From Arenicellales bacterium (GTDB lineage: Bacteria; Pseudomonadota; Gammaproteobacteria; Arenicellales; JAHEKD01), in NCBI GenBank assembly GCA_028284225.1, contig JANQSD010000022.1:227777-291776 (forward strand): a stretch of 64,000 nucleotides of DNA, written 5' to 3'. Positions 2,561 through 21,017 of this stretch are shown in pieces. Each line of letters starts with the position of its first letter. The stretch's first letter is position 1. Below the pieces are notes generated by a model. That model did no database searches, was not told the origin of the DNA, and saw only the letters and a list, made by a program, of their open reading frames with translations. The position numbers and the translations under genes were made by a program.

Positions 2561-3229
2561 TTACCAGCCCGAGGGAAGTTTTTTGTGGATGGTAATTTGT
2601 TTGCTTTTGCTGCTGATATAACCGCCTTCAACCAAATCATGAAAAATTTTATTTACCATTTCTCTGGATGAACCGACCATATTGGCAATATCCTGTTGAG
2701 TTAACTTTTCTTCGACAATGAGCACGCCATCTTTTTCAATTGCCATTTTTAACAAGGTGTTTACAATCCTGCGGTAAACATTGCTTAACGCAAGGCTCTT
2801 AATGCTGCCTGTTAAATCACGTATGCGATCTGTCAATGCGCTGAGCATATTCATTGCAATGTCTATGTTGTCACGTAAACACTGCTGGAAATCACTGCGG
2901 CTGATGATTAAAAAGCTGGATGGTTCCAGCGTCATGACATTCGCTGATCTCGGTTCGCTATCCAATAACGCTATTTCCCCGAAATAAGACCCTTGTGGGA
3001 TGATGCCGAGTACTATTTCTCTGCCATTACGGTCAGTTAAGAAAGCTTTGGCACGTCCTTTTTCAACGACATAAAGCGAATCAGTATGATCTCCCTCGTT
3101 AATAATGGCTGCGTTTTTTGGAAAAGAACGCCTTATCGCATGTTTTGTGATGGTTTCTAAATCCTCATCCGAGAGGTTCGAGAAAAATGGCACTTGGCTC
3201 ATTAATTCTTTCATATGCTTCTCAGTCAT
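2561..3229 (-). CDS. CRP/FNR-family transcriptional regulator
   Basis: A 222-residue regulator. Residues ~12-130 form a cyclic-nucleotide-binding domain, with FGEIALLD..PRSAN matching the phosphate-binding cassette of cAMP receptors. A long dimer helix follows, then a C-terminal winged helix: LTQQDIANMVGSSREMVNKI is the HTH. There are no FNR-type cysteines at the N terminus, so a cyclic nucleotide rather than oxygen is the likely signal. The ATG is at 3229; the ATG five codons later is possible. The gene is divergent from the cyclase at 3454, with 224 bp of shared regulatory DNA between them, which suggests a signal-maker/signal-reader pair. I do not call it crp itself because the sequence differs clearly from the canonical protein. 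Confidence 0.88.
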   Translation of the reverse strand: MTEKHMKELMSQVPFFSNLSDEDLETITKHAIRRSFPKNAAIINEGDHTDSLYVVEKGRAKAFLTDRNGREIVLGIIPQGSYFGEIALLDSEPRSANVMTLEPSSFLIISRSDFQQCLRDNIDIAMNMLSALTDRIRDLTGSIKSLALSNVYRRIVNTLLKMAIEKDGVLIVEEKLTQQDIANMVGSSREMVNKIFHDLVEGGYISSKSKQITIHKKLPSGW

Positions 3230-3440
3230 TGTTCAACATTTTTCTTTAGTGACGTTCATAGGTTTAGTATAGCTTTAACTTATAAAACTACAAAAATTAA
3301 AATATGTTAATTCCCACATAAATATCAGTCATTTGCTTGGGATCATGGCTACAACGATCTAAAATAAGCAAATCAACCTAATAGGCGTTGGATTATTTGT
3401 TAATATTACGCGGCATGCTGTACCTAAGCAAATAAATCCA

Positions 3441-3456
3441 AAGGGAGATGTAGCTG
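3441..3456 (+). promoter_or_regulatory. Shine-Dalgarno and probable CTG start of the cyclase gene
   Basis: AAGGGAG at 3441-3447 is followed 6 nt later by CTG (3454), which opens the zinc-ribbon frame. An ATG-TAG start-stop pair (3448-3453) lies between them and blocks any upstream in-frame start. The only other upstream choice is ATT at 3460. The TTG at 3667 would remove both zinc ribbons. Confidence 0.65.
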
Positions 3457-6400
3457 ACAATTGAATGTTCAAAGTGTGGATTTTCCAATCCTGACGAAGC
3501 TCGGTTTTGTGGTGGCTGTGGGAATACTATAGCCTCTCTTGATTGCCAGCACTGCGGCAGCAGTAACCAGGCCGGTGCACGTTTTTGCTCATTCTGCGGT
3601 CAATCCCTAGCCGTCGAAACCAAATCAGAACAGACGCAGGAAGAATCGCAAGCGGAGCGACGCTTATTGACGGTTATGTTTTGTGATCTGGTTGATTCAA
3701 CCACCATTGTTGACAGTCTTGATCCTGAAGAAACCCGCTCCATAATCCGTAATTTTCAATCCCATGCCAAGCTTATTATTGAACAGTTCGGTGGACGTAT
3801 TACTGAATATTTAGGCGATGGGATTGTCGCTCAATTTACACGCCATGAAACCAATGCCGAGCGTGCAATTAATGCGGGTTTGGGATTAATTCGAAAACTC
3901 GAAGAAGAAAATATTATTATCAGTTCAACCGGAAATGCTGTAAAAGTACGTTGCGGAATTGCAACTGGGCTGGCCGTAGTGGGTGATATGCTGGGTGACA
4001 CTCGTATCCGTTCTGAGTCAGCCATTGGTTTGCCCTTGAATCTGGCAGCTCGAATTCAGGGTTTAGCCAACCCCAGCGAAATTGTGATAGCCGGTGATAC
4101 GTTTCGTCTGACTCGGGGATTGTTCGAGTTTGAAGATATAGGCAAACACACACTCAAAGGCATTAAAGATTCGCAACAAGTCTGGCGGGTAATCAAGGAA
4201 AAGCACGTTAGCTCACGGTTTATGGCAAATGCTGCCGAGATGACACCGATGGTGGATCGTGAGGATGCGATGGGCGTGTTACTAAATTGTTGGGAAAGCA
4301 GCAAGCGTGGTCATGCCGATGCGGTCATTTTTACCGGCGAAGCGGGTATTGGCAAGTCACGGATATTGCAGGAGTTGGGTAAAAAAATCTCTAAAGATGA
4401 TTTCTTTTATCTTGAATATCAGTGTGCACCTTACCACACCAATACCGCACTTTATCCCTTAACCAACAGGCTAGAGGTAGCAGCCGGTTTCGAGCGTGAT
4501 GACAGTAGTGAACAACGACTGACCAAATTAGAAAAACTGGTCGAGATGTCTTCTGAAGACATGGACTTTGACATGCCCGCATTTGTCAGCTTGATGGGGC
4601 TGCAGTCAGGCAAAAAGTGGCCAATGCCAAACCTTGATCCGGATGAAAAAAAGGAGCGTATATTCACAGCGTTAATCAAAAACATGTTTGCCCTGGCAAA
4701 GACTAAGCCACTGTTAATCAAAATTGAAGATGTACACTGGATTGATCCCACTACACTTGAGCTAATGGGACGTATGATTAAAGCCCTGAAGGGACACAAT
4801 ATTCTGTTATTGATTACATCCAGACCGGGATTTGATGCCGATTTTCTGCAGGAAACACATGTTACACGCCTGGAAATAGAGCGGCTGCCGCGTCAGTACA
4901 CCGCTCAATTGATTGAAGGTGTTCAAGGAGTAAAAGAATTACCCAAGGATGTCATTAACGAGATTATTCAGCGCACCGAGGGTATCCCTTTATTTGCAGA
5001 AGAGTTGAGCAAGAGCCTGATGGAAAGTTTACAAGCAGAAAGCGCTTCGGCCGACTCAAGTGTGCTAGTCAAAAAAGATATTCCAACAACCTTGCATGAT
5101 TCACTATTGGCCCGTCTGGATAGATTGCCCAAATCATCTAAATCAATCGCGCAATTAGCGGCCGTTATCGGCCGGGATTTTTCATTCGATTTGCTTGAGC
5201 ACATTGCAGATTATGAGCAAAAAAACCTTTATAAAGATTTAACGCCGTTACTTGAAGCCCAGCTGGTTTATCAGGATAAAGCACCACCCTATGCGGAGTT
5301 TTGTTTTAAACATGCCCTGGTGCGGGATGTTGCCTATGAAAATTTGTTGCAAAGTGAACGTGTTGATATTCACAAACGCATCGCCGAGGCGATTGAAAAA
5401 AATTACCCCGATATTATTAAGAAAACCCCAGAACTGATCGCACGCCACTTCACCGAAGGCAAGCAATACGAAAAAGCAGTCCAATATTGGTTACAAGCCG
5501 GGGAAAAGGCAAGTAAGCAGTTCGCATTATTAGAGGCCAGGGAACATCTTTCTACTGGACTAAATCTTTTAGAAAAACTTGAAGATAGCCAAGAAACCAA
5601 AACTAAAAAACTAGAATATTTAATAACATTGGGTCCTGTTTTAATGGCTTTAGAAGGATCAGGGTCGGAGATCACAAGGCAGAATTATTTAAACGCAGTC
5701 AATTTGTGTGATCAATTACCCGAATCAGCAAAACAATTTACAGCTTTATGGGGCCAGTGGCTGGTTTCCATGGATTATGAAGATGATCATGCATTCACAT
5801 GGTCAAATCGTATTCAGGATTTAGCACAAAGACTGGATGACATCGATCTCAAACTTCAAGCACATCATTGTCAATGGACAACCTACTTTCATCATGGTGA
5901 TTTTATTAATGCACATGAACATATAATTACCGGATTGAAGTTATATGATTTTGAGCAACATCACGATCATGCAAGTATTTATGGTGGACATGATCCAAAA
6001 GTATGTGGGACGGGTTTTCTATCTCATGCGTTATGGTTCTTGGGGGATGAAGAAAAAGCTCTGGAACAATCAAAGCAATGTTATGAATGGGCTGTTGATA
6101 TAAAACATAAAGGCTCTCTGTTTCATGCTGTTGAATTAAATTTACTTTTACAATTATTCAGAAAAGATCAAGCAGGAATTACATTATGGGCTAAAAAGTT
6201 ATTCGATATATGTGCTGAACTTAAATTGCCAGAATATGAGGGAAGACTTAAGCATTGTCAGGGTCTGGTCATGACCTTCAATGGGTCTTTAAATGATGGA
6301 ATTATTCTGATGCAGGAGGGACTAAATCAGCTAGTTGATGTTGGTACTACAGAGGACTATTTATTACTTTCTGAGATTATTGTTCAAGCATTAATTGCAA

Positions 6401-6759
6401 ATAATAAGCTTGACGATGCGATGGAAAAAATAAACTCAACAATTAGTATACTTGATTCACAAACTATTCAATATTGGAAGGCCGAAGTATTTAGGCGAAA
6501 AGGGAAAATATTATTTTTGTTAGGAAATAACTTAGAGGCATTAGAGTCCTACAAAATAGCCTTGAATACTGCCATAGACCAAAAAGCCAAACCGCTCGAA
6601 TTTAGGGCAATGATTAGTTTATGTGAACTTTATCAATCAACCGGCTTATTTCCCGAATCAAAAGAGATTTTGATTGATGCATATAAACAAGATAGTGAAA
6701 GCTCTATATCTAAAGAACTTCTCAGGGCTAAATCAATTCTAGATGAAATTTGCGGCTAA
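3454..6759 (+). CDS. Zinc-ribbon / class III nucleotide cyclase / AAA ATPase / TPR-like protein
   Basis: A giant signalling protein of about 1101 residues. The domains in order are two zinc ribbons (C5-C8/C19-C22 and C31-C34/C45-C48) and a class III adenylate/guanylate cyclase domain (~73-245) with MFCDLVDST, YLGDGIVAQF and NLAARIQ supplying the metal aspartates and the Asn/Arg pair. Next comes a STAND/AAA_16-like ATPase with Walker A GEAGIGKS (~295-302) and Walker B LLIKIEDVHW (~415-424), then a long helical, TPR-like C terminus (~620-1101). Family members make cAMP (or cGMP) under control of the sensor ATPase. The start is inferred as CTG at 3454; no ATG in frame exists before the cyclase domain. 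It is divergent from the CRP-like gene. Confidence 0.88.
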   Translation: MTIECSKCGFSNPDEARFCGGCGNTIASLDCQHCGSSNQAGARFCSFCGQSLAVETKSEQTQEESQAERRLLTVMFCDLVDSTTIVDSLDPEETRSIIRNFQSHAKLIIEQFGGRITEYLGDGIVAQFTRHETNAERAINAGLGLIRKLEEENIIISSTGNAVKVRCGIATGLAVVGDMLGDTRIRSESAIGLPLNLAARIQGLANPSEIVIAGDTFRLTRGLFEFEDIGKHTLKGIKDSQQVWRVIKEKHVSSRFMANAAEMTPMVDREDAMGVLLNCWESSKRGHADAVIFTGEAGIGKSRILQELGKKISKDDFFYLEYQCAPYHTNTALYPLTNRLEVAAGFERDDSSEQRLTKLEKLVEMSSEDMDFDMPAFVSLMGLQSGKKWPMPNLDPDEKKERIFTALIKNMFALAKTKPLLIKIEDVHWIDPTTLELMGRMIKALKGHNILLLITSRPGFDADFLQETHVTRLEIERLPRQYTAQLIEGVQGVKELPKDVINEIIQRTEGIPLFAEELSKSLMESLQAESASADSSVLVKKDIPTTLHDSLLARLDRLPKSSKSIAQLAAVIGRDFSFDLLEHIADYEQKNLYKDLTPLLEAQLVYQDKAPPYAEFCFKHALVRDVAYENLLQSERVDIHKRIAEAIEKNYPDIIKKTPELIARHFTEGKQYEKAVQYWLQAGEKASKQFALLEAREHLSTGLNLLEKLEDSQETKTKKLEYLITLGPVLMALEGSGSEITRQNYLNAVNLCDQLPESAKQFTALWGQWLVSMDYEDDHAFTWSNRIQDLAQRLDDIDLKLQAHHCQWTTYFHHGDFINAHEHIITGLKLYDFEQHHDHASIYGGHDPKVCGTGFLSHALWFLGDEEKALEQSKQCYEWAVDIKHKGSLFHAVELNLLLQLFRKDQAGITLWAKKLFDICAELKLPEYEGRLKHCQGLVMTFNGSLNDGIILMQEGLNQLVDVGTTEDYLLLSEIIVQALIANNKLDDAMEKINSTISILDSQTIQYWKAEVFRRKGKILFLLGNNLEALESYKIALNTAIDQKAKPLEFRAMISLCELYQSTGLFPESKEILIDAYKQDSESSISKELLRAKSILDEICG

Positions 6760-6772
6760 GATATAAAATTTA

Positions 6773-7453
6773 CTAATCTTGATGAGCTCCAACCATTTTA
6801 GAACGGGCCGCCATTTTAGAACGGGCCGCCATTTTAGAACGTGATGCCATTTTAGAACGAGCCGCTAGCTTAGAGCGTGATGTCATGAACCCTTCATCAT
6901 CACAAGGCTCAAGCAAGATTTCTTTAAATGTGCCTATATCCAGGTCAATGCAAATTGATTTGTCATGTCTGTCGATTTTCCAGACTCGAATATCGCTGCC
7001 GAAGCGCCAGTCTTTGCCTTCTATGCCTGTATTTCGGGTTAGAAACCTTGGCAAGCCTGAGGCACTGTCAACTTCTTCGGGTGGAATGCCGTTACCCCAG
7101 ACCATGTAAATTAAAGGATAGTCAAGCTTGTAATAATTTCCCTCGTAGGAAAAACTGTATATTCTGGCTAAGATAGGTTCCAATCCTTGACCACTACTGA
7201 TATCTGAAGCAGTCGGAATGGTGTTATCACAATTGTCGTCAAGTTCCTCTCCAAAGCGGATACGTCGGTATTCTTGTTCCAGGGTTCCTGGCGGCATTGG
7301 GGAATCACCGTTTGCATCAGCAGTTGCGTTATAAGGGGTTTGATTCAATTCATCCAGAGCTAATCGTAGCCCTCTGAATTTTTTCCCAAAAAGATAAATT
7401 TTAGTAGGCTCGTAGAGGTCTTCGGAAAGAAGTTGAAGTGGGTCTAGCGCCAT
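6773..7453 (-). CDS. Hypothetical protein with a C-terminal six-residue repeat tail
   Basis: A 226-residue protein I do not recognise. It has no signal peptide or membrane segment. The first ~190 residues look globular and mixed in composition, with several Trp/Tyr-rich strands. The last ~35 residues are five tandem copies of R-S-K-M/L-A-A/S/T, a strongly basic tail encoded by 18 bp repeats. A good GGAGG lies 7 nt before the ATG, so the gene is likely expressed. It is convergent with the cyclase gene (13 bp between stops). The tail could bind nucleic acid, membrane or a partner; that is a guess. Confidence 0.6.
   Translation of the reverse strand: MALDPLQLLSEDLYEPTKIYLFGKKFRGLRLALDELNQTPYNATADANGDSPMPPGTLEQEYRRIRFGEELDDNCDNTIPTASDISSGQGLEPILARIYSFSYEGNYYKLDYPLIYMVWGNGIPPEEVDSASGLPRFLTRNTGIEGKDWRFGSDIRVWKIDRHDKSICIDLDIGTFKEILLEPCDDEGFMTSRSKLAARSKMASRSKMAARSKMAARSKMVGAHQD
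6793..6882 (-). repeat. Five tandem 18 bp repeats inside the coding sequence
   Basis: Five in-frame 18 bp units start at 6793, 6811, 6829, 6847 and 6865. Units 1 and 2 are identical (CCATTTTAGAACGGGCCG). Units 3 and 4 differ by a few bases, and unit 5 is the most diverged. Each encodes one RSKxAx hexapeptide. This is a slippage-prone, probably length-variable tract. Confidence 0.92.
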
Positions 7454-9943: not shown

Positions 9944-11205
9944 TAATACTCTATTTCGCGCCAATCAAAAACCTCAGCAATCTCAACGCTATATTGCCCG
10001 TCTGATAGCTCTTGGTCAGCGTTGAATAATGATTGGACAATCTGCGGAAATGTTAAGTTCCAGGAAAGCTGTTCCCAGCTTAAACTGAGCAATAATCCAG
10101 TGTAATCGCGTGCATCTACCAAGGCTTGTTTAAATCCCAGTGGATTTGCCTCATAGGCGGAATCAAAAGCTTCTTGTACCTGTTGCTCGTTGTCCATTTT
10201 TTCAGTCAATCCGCGTGATAATTCATCCAGCTCAGGGTCTATAAGTTCTTTCTCCAGTAATTTTTGTTGAAAGATTTCAACGAATAAATCAAACAGGGCC
10301 CCGGTAAAAGGCAAACTCATGTCGTGCAATTGTTTGATGGTTAATTGATCAAGAGGTGTGTCAGGGTCGGGGACATTTTTCATTTTTATATCATTACTGG
10401 CCATGCGGATCTGACGTGTATTGGACTCTTCTCCAACGCGATTTAATTCGTTGCGTGAGTAAAGATTTCCACTTGACTGCTCAAGTAAGCGGTCAATGAC
10501 GGAGTTAAAATGTAATAATGAAATGATTGCTACAATATCACTCGCTGTTTCATGAAAGGCAAAAAATTGGGGCGTAGCTGTATCATCAGTCGGCATGCCG
10601 ATCACTGAATAAAGCAGTTGATGGCCAAATTCATGGGCCAGCACATCAAAGTTCAGGTTGTAAGGGAATTTATGGCCTTCATCGTCTTTACCGTATCCCA
10701 TTTCAATGAAGCCGTAACCGGCATGGGCATTGTCCCAATCCACCCAGGGTACCAGTTCCATCTGCTCAAATGTATCGCTAAAACTCCATTCTATCTCGTG
10801 GCCGAAATAAGTTTCCCAGATATCCAGTACAAAGCGCAGGGTGCCGTACATGTGTGCCGCTTCGAATTCATGGGTCCCGATCTCCAAATGATCAAAATGT
10901 CCATCAGGTCCGGCTATGGCAGGTGGATTAATTGCCCCATTATAGGGCGGTAATCGAGGGCCGTCGTAATAATCTTTATCAATTGCATCGACCACATACA
11001 TCCGGTCATCACTTGGTCCGGGGCCGATCTCCCAAGGTGCAATGGAAACCCAAACGGTTTCAGGTTCCTGGTAGTCGGTTAACAATGGTGATTGTGGGAA
11101 TAGTCTGAACCGAGTGCCGGCCTCGCGGAAATCGATCTCGAGTTCGCTAAGTTCACAACCGGGGCATATGTCCTCATTGCGCTTTTTGTAATTATCCACC
11201 CTCAT
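9943..11205 (-). CDS. Putative gluzincin zinc metallopeptidase linked to tfuA/ycaO
   Basis: A 420-residue protein without signal peptide or membrane segments. HEFGH (191-195) is a zinc-binding HExxH, and HETASD (218-223) 23 residues on supplies the third ligand Glu and the Asp seen as NExxSD in thermolysin-like gluzincins. So the fold is probably M4-like, though overall similarity to known M4 enzymes is low. The N terminus carries a CPGC pair (C14, C17). The start overlaps the end of tfuA by 14 bp, indicating translational coupling. In such a locus the natural role would be leader removal or processing of a modified peptide; this is inference from position. Confidence 0.72.
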   Translation of the reverse strand: MRVDNYKKRNEDICPGCELSELEIDFREAGTRFRLFPQSPLLTDYQEPETVWVSIAPWEIGPGPSDDRMYVVDAIDKDYYDGPRLPPYNGAINPPAIAGPDGHFDHLEIGTHEFEAAHMYGTLRFVLDIWETYFGHEIEWSFSDTFEQMELVPWVDWDNAHAGYGFIEMGYGKDDEGHKFPYNLNFDVLAHEFGHQLLYSVIGMPTDDTATPQFFAFHETASDIVAIISLLHFNSVIDRLLEQSSGNLYSRNELNRVGEESNTRQIRMASNDIKMKNVPDPDTPLDQLTIKQLHDMSLPFTGALFDLFVEIFQQKLLEKELIDPELDELSRGLTEKMDNEQQVQEAFDSAYEANPLGFKQALVDARDYTGLLLSLSWEQLSWNLTFPQIVQSLFNADQELSDGQYSVEIAEVFDWREIEY

Positions 11206-12487
11206 GATTTTGCTTTAAATAGTAATATTCATCCAAAATCTTAGCATAAAAATCATCGCCATCAACAAAACCCAGTTGAGTAGCATAGTTTTCAATTCTA
11301 TCCGGTAATTCGGTGCCTAGTGTTTGGGTAAAGTACCAATCGCCTAATTGCAACAGATCAAGCTCAGTTAGATCATGGATGGTTAATCGATTATTTTGTT
11401 GAGTTAACTTTGCTTTTTTATCTTGTGCACGGCTGGAAAATTCAGACAACTCGCCTGAATGTTTCAGATAAGCAAGTAAAAGCTGGTCCAGTTGATAAGG
11501 CGAAAGCTGATTCGCGGTCGCTTGACTTTGCTTTATTTGCCATTCACGAGCTAAGCCAAGTTTGAGTGCATCTGGGGATTGGTGTAGCTTGTTCAAATCA
11601 AGATCGCTTGCAGTTTCCGGCTGGGAACCAGTCAAATTCGAGGCCAATGCCTGATCTAATAATTCAAAATAACGCTCGCCTGTCAATCGCAGCTCATCTA
11701 GCACCGGGTTTTCCAAGTGATGTGTTTGATCGATCTCATCAATAGCGGTTTGCCATTGAGTAGTATGTTGGAAAGCAGGCTGACTAATTTTTTGGCTGGA
11801 TGATTGCATAGTTTTATGCCGATTAATTTGATCGAGCATGGTCAGCGCGTCAAGGTGTTTTTGGTCAATCTTATTTTCCTGTACCCATTGCCCCAGATCG
11901 GATAATCGTTCGGCGGCAATATCGTATTGCTTGGCAAGCATGAAAACTTCAGCGTAATTTCGCTGAGGGTAAAAAAGTGATTTAGTGATATCGGTTAGCG
12001 TTTTAAGTTCTTCAGCGTTAATGAGTTTTTGCTGTTGTGCCTTGGCGAGTGTAAAGCGAATGTTGACCATGGCCTCGCTAGCCGGTTTATAACCGAGCTC
12101 CGCCGGACCGTGAATGACCGCAACTTCATCATCGTCTTCAAAAACGTCATCAATAAATGGCGGCAACACTCCCGATTGATAAGCCTGATAAATCTTGCCG
12201 CAACCTTGCATACCAAACTGATCTAATTCTGCTGCCCGTAGCGCCCCCATGCTTGCTGCCCCAAACACTGTTACGCCTTGATTCATCGCCCATAGAATTT
12301 CTTTATGCCAGGCTGCAGGAACCTGATTGAAGTAACCATCGATAATGCCGATTATCTCAGGTTGATAAAGTTCGGTGATTCGGTAGACATCACCGTATTT
12401 AACAGGCGGCAAGTAAGTTGCAGTCAGACGCTGCTGAGCATCTTCAAGCGTAATAGTCGGGCCGATGAAAATGAAGGTTTTGTTCAT
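11192..12487 (-). CDS. tfuA: TfuA-like protein, partner of YcaO
   Basis: A 431-residue protein. The first ~210 residues match the TfuA core: FIFIGPTITLEDA, PEIIGIIDGYF, then WAMNQGVTVFGAASMGALRAAEL and a GVLPPFIDDVFEDDDEVAV segment. The remaining ~220 residues are a helical, Gln-rich extension. TfuA proteins act with YcaO enzymes. In thioviridamide-type peptides and archaeal methyl-CoM reductase the pair installs backbone thioamides, with TfuA thought to deliver sulfur or aid the YcaO. It overlaps the peptidase gene and follows ycaO on the same strand, separated from it by a 477 bp gap that holds the GIY-YIG cassette. There is no clear Shine-Dalgarno before its ATG. Confidence 0.85.
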   Translation of the reverse strand: MNKTFIFIGPTITLEDAQQRLTATYLPPVKYGDVYRITELYQPEIIGIIDGYFNQVPAAWHKEILWAMNQGVTVFGAASMGALRAAELDQFGMQGCGKIYQAYQSGVLPPFIDDVFEDDDEVAVIHGPAELGYKPASEAMVNIRFTLAKAQQQKLINAEELKTLTDITKSLFYPQRNYAEVFMLAKQYDIAAERLSDLGQWVQENKIDQKHLDALTMLDQINRHKTMQSSSQKISQPAFQHTTQWQTAIDEIDQTHHLENPVLDELRLTGERYFELLDQALASNLTGSQPETASDLDLNKLHQSPDALKLGLAREWQIKQSQATANQLSPYQLDQLLLAYLKHSGELSEFSSRAQDKKAKLTQQNNRLTIHDLTELDLLQLGDWYFTQTLGTELPDRIENYATQLGFVDGDDFYAKILDEYYYLKQNHEGG

Positions 12488-12512
12488 TTAATCGCAAATT
12501 GCCAGAAAACAG

Positions 12513-12548
12513 TTAGCACTTGTCATACTGGCGAAGGCCAGTATCCAG
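12513..12548. repeat. 36 bp palindromic direct repeat, copy 1
   Basis: The element has the perfect 8 bp stem ATACTGGC / GCCAGTAT with a GAAG loop, inside the GTCAT...ATCCAG frame. It is identical to copy 2 at 12921-12956 except for one base (position 6). The two copies flank the GIY-YIG gene in the same orientation. Confidence 0.93.
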
Positions 12549-12549
12549 T

Positions 12550-12840
12550 CTAGAGTAACTCTGGATATAAATCTTTCCATTTAGGATTTATCGTTTCGAT
12601 TAACTTTATTTTCCATTGGCGTTTCCAGTTTTTAAGCGCCTTTTCTCTAGAAAAAGCTGATTCCATTGTACTGTGTAGCTCATACCACATGAGGTTATAC
12701 ACTTTATACTTTTTTGTAAAACCAGGAACCAAAGATTGTTTATGTTCCCAGACACGCTTTATTAAATTGGATGTTACTCCAACATAAAGCGTACCGTTCT
12801 TCCTACTAGCCATAATATAAACACAGGGTTGTTTACCCAT
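12550..12840 (-). CDS. Small GIY-YIG nuclease-domain protein (YhbQ/UPF0213-like)
   Basis: A 96-residue stand-alone GIY-YIG domain. The family motif is seen as VYIMASRKNGTLYVGVTSN, followed by a catalytic-type arginine/histidine segment, LIKRVWEHK, the conserved FTKKY, the glutamate-containing MESAFSREKALKNWKR and a final WKDLYPEL. Such small proteins have the nuclease fold, but many have no known target. The gene lies exactly between two near-identical 36 bp palindromic direct repeats and in the same direction as ycaO and tfuA, which it separates. A paralogue at 62895 has the same kind of surroundings. This suggests a repeat-associated, perhaps mobile, cassette. Confidence 0.88.
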   Translation of the reverse strand: MGKQPCVYIMASRKNGTLYVGVTSNLIKRVWEHKQSLVPGFTKKYKVYNLMWYELHSTMESAFSREKALKNWKRQWKIKLIETINPKWKDLYPELL

Positions 12841-12920
12841 CCTTGAGTCCTTATGTAACTTCCTTGTTTAAAGATACTGGATTGCGGCGTTCGCCACAAT
12901 GACGTAAATAAAGCGATCAT

Positions 12921-12956
12921 TTAGCTCTTGTCATACTGGCGAAGGCCAGTATCCAG
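12921..12956. repeat. 36 bp palindromic direct repeat, copy 2
   Basis: Same orientation as copy 1, 408 bp away (start to start), with one mismatch. It ends 8 bp from the 3' end of ycaO. A second weak hairpin (GCGGCGTTCGCC) lies between this copy and the GIY-YIG gene near 12884. Confidence 0.93.
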
Positions 12957-12964
12957 AAATATTG

Positions 12965-14188
12965 TTACCCCATCTCAAACGGTAAATCTATCAATGCCTT
13001 GGCTCTTGGGCCGGGAATATAGCTGCTGTGCCAGTGGCCGTAGGCCCCTTCGAGACCTGGGATAACAACCTTGACCACCGATAGTCCGTATTCTGGTTTG
13101 GTTAAATCAACAGCAATAATTTGTTTGATTCCTACAGCGGTGAGCCGGGAAATGCATAATTGTAAATCTTCAGACATATCTGCATGGTCAAAGCTTGGAA
13201 GTTGATTGAACTGTTTGATGGGTTGATGTTTCTCCAGCAACTCGTAGCCCTGGATGCGGCGTTTTTGCCGTTGGTCAGCCTGGTATTCTGACCAGCCAAC
13301 GTCATCACGACTGCCGGCAATATATGTCGCTCTGGACTGTGCGGCTTCGGTTAAGGCTCGGGAAAGGGCGACTTCTTTGCTGGCATGGGTCCCGGCTCCA
13401 GATTCGGGGTCGGCCCAATCATCTTCATCGCCTATCGCCAGGCAAATGAAACTGGGTAATCCAATATCGCTGGTCATGTCCCAGATTTTTATCTGAATGT
13501 CGGCATTCTCGAATTGTTTGATCAGCCATTGGCAGTTTTTGTCCTGGATAGATTCAATATCTACACCGGTTGCAATCAGTGCAGAAAGCGGTTGTTGATT
13601 CCACAATGCTTCGGCATCACGCTCAACGACTTCGTAAACGGCATGGCAAATCGCCTCATTTAATGTGTTGCCGGATGCAAGTCCGTTAGTGTTGGCAGCA
13701 AAATAACCGCTGCCGTTCAAATATGGCAGGGTGTAATCCGTACTGACCATTTCAAAGGGTAACCACAGTGGTTGCTGGTTGACCAGGTTAATCCCTTCAA
13801 TCCAGAAAATAGGGATATCAGCGTGTAAAGACTTGGTACTGGATTTAGGCAAAAGCTGAATATCGGCCAGCGGCAGTTGTCCCTGTAAATCATTAATACT
13901 GCCAAATCGCAGTTCGTGGGTGATTCGCTCTGCGTGAAATGTTTCGACCGATTCCATCAATGCAGATACTTTTGCTGCATCAGTTTCGAATCCTTTGCCT
14001 TGTGATACTGAAATCGAGCGTGATTGTGGTCGAAAAGAGGTATAAACAGGAATCCCTACTCTGTCGAGCCCAGTTACATTAGCGACCCGGGTAATACCCA
14101 TTTTACTCATTAAAGGCTGAACTCTTTTCAAAGTATCAGCGGGTGTCAATGTTCGATGAGTGCCTAAGTGATATGCTTTGGGTTCCAT
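12965..14188 (-). CDS. ycaO: YcaO-domain ATP-dependent cyclodehydratase/thioamidase-like protein
   Basis: A 407-residue YcaO protein of the TfuA-associated type. Typical blocks are TGLDRVGIPVYTSFRP, ISVSQGKG, ALMESVETFHAERI (the glutamates that bind Mg-ATP), AICHAVYEVVERDAEALW and the late VKVVIPGLEG. The C terminus ends LPFEMG, not the PxPxP tail of azole-forming TOMM enzymes, which favours a thioamide or other backbone chemistry. YcaO proteins activate a peptide amide oxygen with ATP. The gene opens the minus-strand set ycaO, (GIY-YIG), tfuA, metallopeptidase. It is divergent from the transpeptidase gene at 14318. No precursor peptide was found nearby. Confidence 0.88.
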   Translation of the reverse strand: MEPKAYHLGTHRTLTPADTLKRVQPLMSKMGITRVANVTGLDRVGIPVYTSFRPQSRSISVSQGKGFETDAAKVSALMESVETFHAERITHELRFGSINDLQGQLPLADIQLLPKSSTKSLHADIPIFWIEGINLVNQQPLWLPFEMVSTDYTLPYLNGSGYFAANTNGLASGNTLNEAICHAVYEVVERDAEALWNQQPLSALIATGVDIESIQDKNCQWLIKQFENADIQIKIWDMTSDIGLPSFICLAIGDEDDWADPESGAGTHASKEVALSRALTEAAQSRATYIAGSRDDVGWSEYQADQRQKRRIQGYELLEKHQPIKQFNQLPSFDHADMSEDLQLCISRLTAVGIKQIIAVDLTKPEYGLSVVKVVIPGLEGAYGHWHSSYIPGPRAKALIDLPFEMG

Positions 14189-18523: not shown

Positions 18524-19372
18524 TTAATTGTTCAACCAATTGCTGATAATGTTAATTTGATCTTTATCCATTAACGCAGGAGCATGACCGACAGCTTTAA
18601 TCATTGTTGAGGTTAGGTTCGGTTGAAGTTGTTTCATTTTCTTCAAAATTGAAGGCAGAAGAATATCAGAATTTTCGCCATGAATCAGGTAAATAGGGGC
18701 TTTGATCGATTGGAACAGTGGCCATAAGTCGGCTTTAGCATTGCTGGCGGTTTTAAAAGGAACAACAATTCCCGGGTCATAATTTGAGGTGATTTTCCCA
18801 TCACCATCAGTTTGATAACTATACTTGGCTAAATGTCGCCATTGCTCATCTGTAAGTTGACCAAACGGTGCGTAAACCTGGCGCACATGCTGTTCAAAAT
18901 CTTCTAAATTCGAAAATTTTTCTGACTTCGATAAATAGTCAATAATTCGATTTGCTGCTGCAGAAGGAACTTCAGGGCCGACATCGTTTATGATTAGGCG
19001 CTGAAATGATTGAGGATTCTGTGCAGCAAGTATCATCCCAATCAAACCTCCCATGGACGTGCCCAACCAGTTAAACGAACGGATGGATAATTCCTGCAAT
19101 AGTGTGCTTACTACTTGTAAATAGGTTGGGATGACATAATCGTTTTTATCTTCCAGCCAGTCACTTGAGCCACGTCCCGGAAAATCAATCGCGATAACCC
19201 TGAACTGATCGCAGATTGCACTGGCCAGATAATCAAAGTCGTGTGTGTTTCTGGTCAAGCCGTGAGCGCAGATCACTACTGGGGATTCAGTTTTACCCCA
19301 GTCTAAATAATGGATTCTGTAGGACTTGCCTTTATGATCAAAAGCAAAAAATTGACTATCAGGTTTAGTCAT
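18524..19372 (-). CDS. Alpha/beta hydrolase
   Basis: A 282-residue alpha/beta-fold hydrolase. The oxyanion HG appears in [15 protein letters not shown], the nucleophile elbow is GTSMGG, the acid is likely Asp in [13 protein letters not shown] and the histidine is in [11 protein letters not shown]. The substrate is unknown; esterase or lactonase activity on a small molecule is plausible. The gene overlaps the end of the cyclase gene by 8 bp and is followed 11 bp later by gloA, so it belongs to the same transcript. Confidence 0.85.
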
Positions 19373-21017
19373 GTTCGATTAGGTTGATAAGTTCAGATAA
19401 CTGTTCATCAGCAGTAATCGGATAAACAGTCATGCCATTTTCGCGGCCGCGAATGGGGACTTGAGTGGCGCTCAAATGATGCTGCCTGATTCCAGATTCG
19501 ATAAGTAATTCTTTGGATATAACAACTTTACAGCCCAAATTCTTGGTTTGAGCTTCAAGCCTGGCTGCAATATTAATATTGTCGCCGATGGCGGAATAGT
19601 TAGGTGATTTCGGTGGCCCCATGTTGCCGACTATTGCTTCACCACAATGCAGTCCGATACCCATTTTAAGCGGTTGCTCAAGGTCAGCTTGCATTTTTTC
19701 ATTCAGTTTTTGCAAGCGCTCGAGCATATCAAGTGCACCTTTGAGTGCCTCGCGGCATGCGGTTTTTAAATCTGTATTAACACCGTACAAAGCCATGAGT
19801 CCATCGCCGGCAAACTGGGCATAATGACCGTTTGTATTGTGCAAAGATTTGGACATTTCAACAAAAAACTGATTCAGAATAAAAAGCACATCATAAGGCA
19901 GTTTGTACTCGGCTAATTGAGTTGATCCACGCAGGTCGACAAACATGGCCACAACTGCTTTTTCTTCACCGCTCACTCCGCCAGCCGGTTGAGCCAGTTT
20001 CATACTGGCATCAGCAGGTAATAGTGGGGTCACTTCAATATCACCGTTAACCACCGCCTGACACGCCAGTCTGACGTCCGGTGCGGCTTTGATTCGTGTT
20101 AGTGCGAGTCGCTCAAGTTCACTCACGCTCCCCAGGTTTTCAGCGCCGTGATTAACACGCACCCGGCAAGTGGTGCAGCGAGCCCGGCCACCGCAGACGG
20201 ATGCATGCGGCAAGTCGGCAAAACGAATCGCATTAAGAATACTTTGCCCGGATGATGCTTTGATGCTGTGATCAGAAATTGAAATTGTGCAACGATCCTT
20301 GCTCAGCACCATTTTGCGGCGCAGCTGCTTAAGCAGCAACATTAAAATGCTACACACTACTACAAACCACAGTAATGCCATTTTTAAAGTATAAATCTGC
20401 TGTGTGATTTCAGGATCTTTTAGCTCTGGAACATCATACTCAAAAGCTTGATAGCCTGATTGAACAAAACCAATCAATGCCAGTAAAGGCCAGATAATCG
20501 CCAGGGCATATATCCAGTAAAGATTTTTGCGATACCAGTGCTTGGTTTTTAACCAGTAATGAAAACCAAGACAAATATGAAACCAGGCGACAATGACTAA
20601 TGCAAACTGACGAATTACTTCTCCCATGTCCAGCCAGATTGCTTGCAAAATTAACGGATAGGTCGTGTCGACTTCGAAACCATGATAATAGCCGCGAACT
20701 GGAATTACGTGAGGGATGAGCAATAGAATCATCGCAATTCCACTGAGAATTTGTAATTGTTGCCAGCGATGCAGGTGTAAAAACGGCCGTTGATAAAGCG
20801 CCCTCATCGCAATGAAGAAATGAACGGCAATACTAAGGCCGAGTATAGTGGTTGCAAACGGATGACGAACAATTTTAGTCACAAGGTTGCGCATGGCTTC
20901 CATCGCTTCGATGCTAACCAGGCCAAGGATGTGATTACCCAGATGGATAAAGACATAGCTGAACATAATCAGCGCGGTCATTGAACGCAGTCGATTAATT
21001 AAATAGCGAGAAACCAA
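19365..21017 (-). CDS. Membrane [2Fe-2S]-ferredoxin / class III nucleotide cyclase fusion
   Basis: A 550-residue three-part protein. Residues 1-230 hold about six membrane helices with several histidines. Residues ~243-335 are a plant/adrenodoxin-type ferredoxin with cluster ligands C275, C281, C284 and C319. Residues ~350-530 form a class III cyclase with MFVDLRGST, FAGDGLMALYG and GDNINIAARLE, so the catalytic metal and Asn/Arg residues are intact. The architecture suggests that cAMP (or cGMP) synthesis responds to electron flow or redox state at the inner membrane. It is co-directional with tlpA (26 bp upstream) and overlaps the hydrolase gene downstream. Confidence 0.92.
   Translation of the reverse strand: MVSRYLINRLRSMTALIMFSYVFIHLGNHILGLVSIEAMEAMRNLVTKIVRHPFATTILGLSIAVHFFIAMRALYQRPFLHLHRWQQLQILSGIAMILLLIPHVIPVRGYYHGFEVDTTYPLILQAIWLDMGEVIRQFALVIVAWFHICLGFHYWLKTKHWYRKNLYWIYALAIIWPLLALIGFVQSGYQAFEYDVPELKDPEITQQIYTLKMALLWFVVVCSILMLLLKQLRRKMVLSKDRCTISISDHSIKASSGQSILNAIRFADLPHASVCGGRARCTTCRVRVNHGAENLGSVSELERLALTRIKAAPDVRLACQAVVNGDIEVTPLLPADASMKLAQPAGGVSGEEKAVVAMFVDLRGSTQLAEYKLPYDVLFILNQFFVEMSKSLHNTNGHYAQFAGDGLMALYGVNTDLKTACREALKGALDMLERLQKLNEKMQADLEQPLKMGIGLHCGEAIVGNMGPPKSPNYSAIGDNINIAARLEAQTKNLGCKVVISKELLIESGIRQHHLSATQVPIRGRENGMTVYPITADEQLSELINLIEHD

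Follow-up and report, generated by a model that had tools for sequence, protein, structure and literature searches.

A double-zinc-ribbon class III nucleotide cyclase gene of an Arenicellales bacterium that probably starts at a noncanonical codon, CTG or ATT

Noncanonical start codons are a known but uncommon means of keeping protein output low. According to excerpts of the cited reports, the Escherichia coli genes infC and pcnB start with AUU (PMC5472188, PMC13009471, PMC1780047), and the output from AUU starts is reduced (PMC13009471, PMC1780047). CUG represents 0.024% of bacterial starts and its output is 0.86% of that of AUG (PMC11497404). In Staphylococcus aureus, AUU and AUA starts accompany extended Shine-Dalgarno motifs (PMC13009471), and in Streptomyces the GTC start of sigR is repressed by initiation factor IF3 (PMC5472188); these statements are likewise taken from excerpts. 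With respect to the enzyme family treated here, no relevant report on a class III adenylyl cyclase with a zinc ribbon was found in the limited collection of literature searched.

The window, that is, the whole stretch of 64,000 nucleotides that was analysed, carries on its forward strand a gene (3454-6759) that probably encodes a protein composed of a double zinc ribbon, a class III cyclase domain and an AAA ATPase domain, with a noncanonical start located just upstream of the first cysteine codon (3466). The protein, which has full-length relatives, would consist of 1101 codons from CTG or 1099 from ATT. A preliminary description of this DNA had proposed that the frame is open back to 3454 and lacks any in-frame ATG or GTG upstream of 3667. 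The sequence and a frame check agree: the frame runs from 3454 to the stop codon at 6757-6759, TTG is likewise absent from the stretch before 3667, and the first standard start codon is the TTG at 3667-3669. Upstream of the ribbons, the order is AAGGGAG (3441-3447), ATG-TAG (3448-3453), CTG (3454-3456), ACA (3457) and ATT (3460-3462). The same description had placed AAGGGAG 6 nt before the CTG and an ATG-TAG start-stop between them, and both elements are found there, the purine-rich motif ending at 3447.

The domain layout of the protein is ordinary, the start alone being unusual. The two ribbons, each with two CxxC pairs and together holding the eight cysteines previously announced, are CSKC-x10-CGGC (3466-3519, Pfam DZR PF12773 and Zn_Ribbon_1) and CQHC-x10-CSFC (3544-3597, PF12773). 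The Double zinc ribbon match reaches 37.3 bits (E 3e-9) and exceeds its cut-off of 27.3, so that the ribbons are beyond chance; by analogy, they may bind zinc and a partner. The class III nucleotide cyclase domain (3667-4185, PF00211, E 1.8e-13; solved relatives 3r5g and 2w01) is followed by an AAA_16 ATPase domain (4258-4806, PF13191, E 2.5e-17, 64.3 bits versus a cut-off of 32.6) and by a TPR-like tail in which TPR_12 scores 22.3 bits and so falls short of its 30.1 cut-off. A further candidate, the TOMM system kinase/cyclase fusion TIGR03903, was rejected, since it scored 454.7 bits versus a curated cut-off of 705.75 over model positions 276-1266 of 1267.

In the cyclase domain, the residues D76, D120, N194 and R198 (ATT numbering) are also found at the aligned positions of 3r5g and are identical in A1, an alignment of three sequences that contains the window protein and its two closest relatives. 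We take D76 and D120 to be the metal-binding aspartate pair, and N194 and R198 the catalytic asparagine and arginine. Glu116 and Ser187 (ATT numbering; 3805-4020) occupy the positions that are assumed to select the base; they stand opposite Lys and Thr in CyaB (3r5g), and opposite Glu and Gly in 2w01. The latter is the guanylyl cyclase Cya2, although the structure match list names it an adenylate cyclase. With Glu/Ser in place of the Lys/Thr pair of CyaB, GTP may be the preferred substrate, and cGMP would be a possible product.

Different lines of evidence indicate that the ribbons hidden upstream of the TTG, as first proposed from the open frame, are real and conserved. Besides the PF12773 match, all eight ribbon cysteines are identical across the three sequences of A1, and so is the motif ERR just before 3667. 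When the window is compared with L051, the cyclase locus of a gammaproteobacterial metagenome-assembled genome of the same genus, codons 3-50 differ at 15, 12 and 32 sites in codon positions 1, 2 and 3, which is a coding pattern; the 16 triplets upstream differ at 11, 11 and 12 sites, without such a pattern. L051 is the gene of locus L009 with more flanking sequence, identical where the two were compared, and identity to L009 amounts to 32/50 in the ribbons, 5/14 in the linker, 144/182 in the cyclase, 324/454 in the ATPase part and 118/369 in the tail. On this comparative basis, the ribbons are presumably translated now, or were until recently. The Pfam cyclase match starts exactly at the TTG 3667, and initiation at this codon, which would cut off both ribbons and the conserved ERR, is very unlikely; the TTG is judged a false start. 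A gene finder limited to ATG, GTG and TTG has no earlier codon at which to start the protein and drops both zinc ribbons.

Where the relatives of this gene start was judged from a set of homologues. Hits by tblastn were obtained in 147 loci. Removal of the 73 without the four-CxxC pattern and of 7 duplicates left 67 rows (the window and 66 homologues), and one further homologue, added later, brought the homologues to 67. The set is made of high-scoring matches, namely loci retained by the searches and ribbon-reaching rows picked by hand (11, 20 and 1); they are not phylogenetically independent and include several close groups. The ribbon pattern was an entry condition, and the count is therefore silent on how common ribbons are. 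Among the matches listed, 63 of the 67 ribbon-bearing homologues carry a standard start codon (ATG, GTG or TTG) at position -2, counted in codons from the first cysteine. These codons were ATG in 36, GTG in 18 and TTG in 8 of the 62 cases among the first 66 homologues, and ATG in the added one. Elsewhere in frame between -1 and -12, a standard start codon occurs at each position in 0 to 7 of the 67 rows, the window being one of them. The rule that the start lies two codons before the first cysteine thus offers a cheap way to flag misannotated or rare-start genes.

The four exceptions (L016, L099, L101 and L140) carry ACG, CTG, ATA and CTG at -2, and have their standard start at -7, -7, -6 and -5, respectively. 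Slightly longer N termini are therefore acceptable in this family, and a start at -4, where the CTG lies, is thereby conceivable; none of the 67 homologues, however, has a standard codon at -4 without another at -2 (L046 and L164 have both). Among the matches listed, the window is the sole row without a standard start, and its -2 codon is the ATT 3460. The closest relatives, L009/L051 (58% identity), L010 (53%) and L038 (48%), are full-length and all read GTG-GAY-TGY, with GTG at -2. A scan of genome contigs with the single protein found no relative, and the same scan with A1 found 19 loci. One other genome of the genus was present among the 109 genomes of the order searched, and the start there is GTG. 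The comparison with homologues suggested at the outset upheld a conserved zinc-ribbon start, and the usual start position in the family corresponds to the ATT.

The Shine-Dalgarno motif is the second source of information on the start. AGGGAG (3442-3447), within AAGGGAG, can pair with the 16S tail; duplex energies were calculated with an assumed tail sequence, as the 16S 3' end was not found in the genome, whose sole 16S sequence found is a 319-base 5' part. For reference, 644 kb of the genome (the window and 29 stretches) yielded 324 first-ATG sites of long frames, which are not curated starts, so the tails of the spacing counts are noisy. A core tetramer lies 4-10 nt upstream of 85 of the 324 sites; a control zone 30-36 nt away holds one in 12 of the 324. 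The AGGGAG duplex (-8.4 kcal/mol) is equalled or exceeded at 4.9% of the 324 sites and at 0.3% of the 324 controls.

Spacings were compared at the 72 strong sites (-6 kcal/mol or better). The CTG lies 6 nt from the motif, as do the starts of 14/72 strong sites, and the ATT lies 12 nt from it (2/72); expressed as aligned spacing, the values are 4 (11/72) and 10 (1/72). The CTG therefore has a strong Shine-Dalgarno at a workable spacing, and for the ATT the strength is the same but the spacing is unusual. The ATG 3448 touches the motif (spacing 0, 2/72; aligned spacing -2, 1/72), and its use as a start is unlikely. The spacing test alone separates the CTG from both the ATT and the ATG 3448. The preliminary description had considered that an error at 3451 might free this ATG from its TAG; with such a spacing the artefact is unattractive, although by count the spacing of the ATT is equally rare.

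As regards spacing, comparison with the same-genus locus weakens the case for the CTG. The GTG of L051 has a Shine-Dalgarno of -6.1 kcal/mol at an aligned spacing of 10, the same as that of the ATT, which reduces the weight of the spacing argument and brings the two candidates near balance. Neither L010 nor L038 (represented by L052 and L053, respectively) has a real Shine-Dalgarno, the search zone giving +1.9 and +0.4. The intergenic region of the window is similar to that of L051 (score of 283 versus a maximum of 259 in 200 shuffles). From 3427 to the first cysteine, a MAFFT alignment is gap-free and sets the ATT 3460 opposite the L051 GTG, the CTG 3454 opposite TAA, and the window AGGGAG opposite GAGGAA. 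Two pairwise alignments with other gap costs instead introduce gaps equivalent to two extra codons in the window, match two GAG triplets and place the L051 GTG one base from the CTG. The alignments disagree on the homologous start codon; all that these comparisons settle is the distance that usually separates start and first cysteine in the family.

Neither candidate passes both tests, since the CTG faces a stop codon in L051 (MAFFT) and the ATT is 12 nt from the Shine-Dalgarno. The preliminary description had favored the CTG and mentioned the ATT as an alternative: the spacing (14/72) speaks for the former, while the family position (63/67) makes the latter a serious rival. That one of the two is needed is supported, barring a sequence error or a very recent mutation. 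Taken jointly, a noncanonical start at CTG or ATT is likely; this is a judgement, not a computation, and so are the gradings of each codon. The CTG 3454 is a tentative first choice that we rate somewhat short of an even chance, and the ATT 3460 is possible at a lower level, the CTG being slightly ahead in what is near parity. In the proposed mechanism, the strong Shine-Dalgarno AGGGAG would hold the ribosome, and the initiator tRNA would then begin at the CTG (likelier, by spacing), at the ATT (usual family position) or at both. Such starts would be weak and opposed by IF3, so little protein would be expected. We infer low expression whichever codon is used, and this expression would possibly be sensitive to IF3.

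Among the rival explanations, a sequence error, the true sequence having a standard start, is unlikely but would need little. A single change is enough, the ATT 3460 being really ATG or the CTG 3454 being really ATG, GTG or TTG. Alternatively, one A could be missing in ATTGAATGT, and the resulting TTG-AAA-TGT would provide a start precisely at -2; a restored start could thus fall at the family's usual position. Moreover, the genome is in 25 contigs and its 16S was found only as the short stretch mentioned above. However, no neighbouring pair of ORFs shares one broken domain in the Pfam tables (57 of the 59 window ORFs scanned, 50 matched), a check that covers insertions and deletions, not substitutions or the 7 ORFs without a match.

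It is also improbable that the strain has recently lost its start codon, the gene now being silent or producing a truncated cyclase from the TTG 3667, with decay not yet begun. The lack of a standard start upstream and the intact 1101-codon frame are what would be expected just after such a loss. Nevertheless, the strong Shine-Dalgarno persists, and the truncated form would be devoid of the ERR shared by the window and its two closest relatives. Compared with both explanations, a start at CTG or ATT is preferred.

Other routes to the ribbons deserve very little credence: read-through of the TAG that follows the ATG 3448, re-initiation after a short leader (ATG 3415 to TAA 3433-3435, or the ATG-TAG) or frameshifting by ribosomes that start in another frame would draw on the ATG-TAG and the six-codon leader, both present in frame. 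Against them, the Shine-Dalgarno directly adjoins the ATG 3448, 3400-3540 folds no better than its shuffles do (z -0.10), and the MAFFT alignment shows neither element at the corresponding position of L051. A structured leader was rejected on RNA folds no better than shuffles (z 0.09, 1.17 and -0.10). Scanning 3200-3700 for promoters and terminators was uninformative, with two sigma-70-like sites (1.2 expected) and a single terminator-like site, which falls within the ribbons (3514-3534; 0.5 expected).

Divergent from the cyclase gene lies that of a CRP/FNR-type regulator (2561-3229, reverse strand; cNMP_binding PF00027, E 4.8e-25, and HTH_Crp_2). The presence of a cyclic-nucleotide sensor beside a cyclase suggests a local circuit. 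In L051, as read by eye from the translation, the order is the same as in the window, the cyclase gene being preceded by a divergent CRP-like gene and this by a DnaJ-like one; no CRP-like gene was seen in the upstream flanks examined of L052 and L053. It is conceivable, but rather unlikely, that a true CTG or ATT start evolved from GTG and brought under IF3 control the synthesis of a nucleotide second messenger, encoded beside a divergent CRP-type regulator. If so, the level of the cyclase would track the state of the translation machinery.

Other features were observed in the window. The intergenic region 2400-2560 contains inverted repeat-like motifs read by eye, CATGCCGGGCTTGATCCGGCATCC and TCATCCTGAGCAACGCGAAGGATC, which may be dispersed palindromic repeats. 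On the reverse strand, the protein encoded at 6773-7453 has no Pfam match at 1e-3 and ends in five (A/S)RSK(M/L) repeats. A second class III cyclase is encoded at 19368-21017 (reverse strand), fused to a 2Fe-2S ferredoxin domain. Genes for a YcaO cyclodehydratase (12968-14188), a GIY-YIG protein (12553-12840) and a TfuA-like protein (11195-12487) stand in a row on the reverse strand, and the same row includes, with the TfuA-like gene, that of a 420-aa protein (9946-11205) without a Pfam match at 1e-5. From the role of such genes, 9946-14188 is presumably a YcaO-TfuA peptide-modification locus.

The nearest point of comparison for a rare start is found in the same genome, in infC, which encodes IF3. 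Its frame opens right after a stop codon and has no ATG, GTG or TTG before a TTG at the 26th codon, which falls inside the IF3-matching stretch. The gene reads GGAGG-ACTTAGC-ATA (L113 1465-1479, G000 contig C21), with a Shine-Dalgarno of dG -9.3 at a spacing of 7 nt (aligned spacing 6), and appears from its sequence to start with ATA behind this strong motif. At least one near-cognate start thus seems to be in use in this organism, this being a single case with an inferred ATA. Among long ORFs of this genome, 0/339 lack a standard start, in a test of little power that admits any start in the first 80 codons.

If the start proposed for the cyclase gene is real, a gene for a signalling enzyme joins the few for which noncanonical starts are known. 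It would resemble infC and pcnB in its near-cognate start codon and, as in the infC of this organism, a strong Shine-Dalgarno is present. In contrast, the spacing of infC here is the usual one (7 nt), and the cyclase is no translation factor, whereas the E. coli infC is described as self-regulating. With the other double-zinc-ribbon class III cyclases, the 67 homologues, it shares the ribbons and the cyclase domain, and with the nearest ones the full-length layout; a standard start lies no more than 7 codons from the first cysteine in all of them, and none does in the window gene. The Streptomyces sigR gene, as presented in the excerpted source, is similar in that it belongs to signalling and combines a rare start with a strong Shine-Dalgarno. 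It differs in that 32 of 34 species retain its codon, which was also tested by mutation, while the start of the cyclase gene is predicted from sequence.
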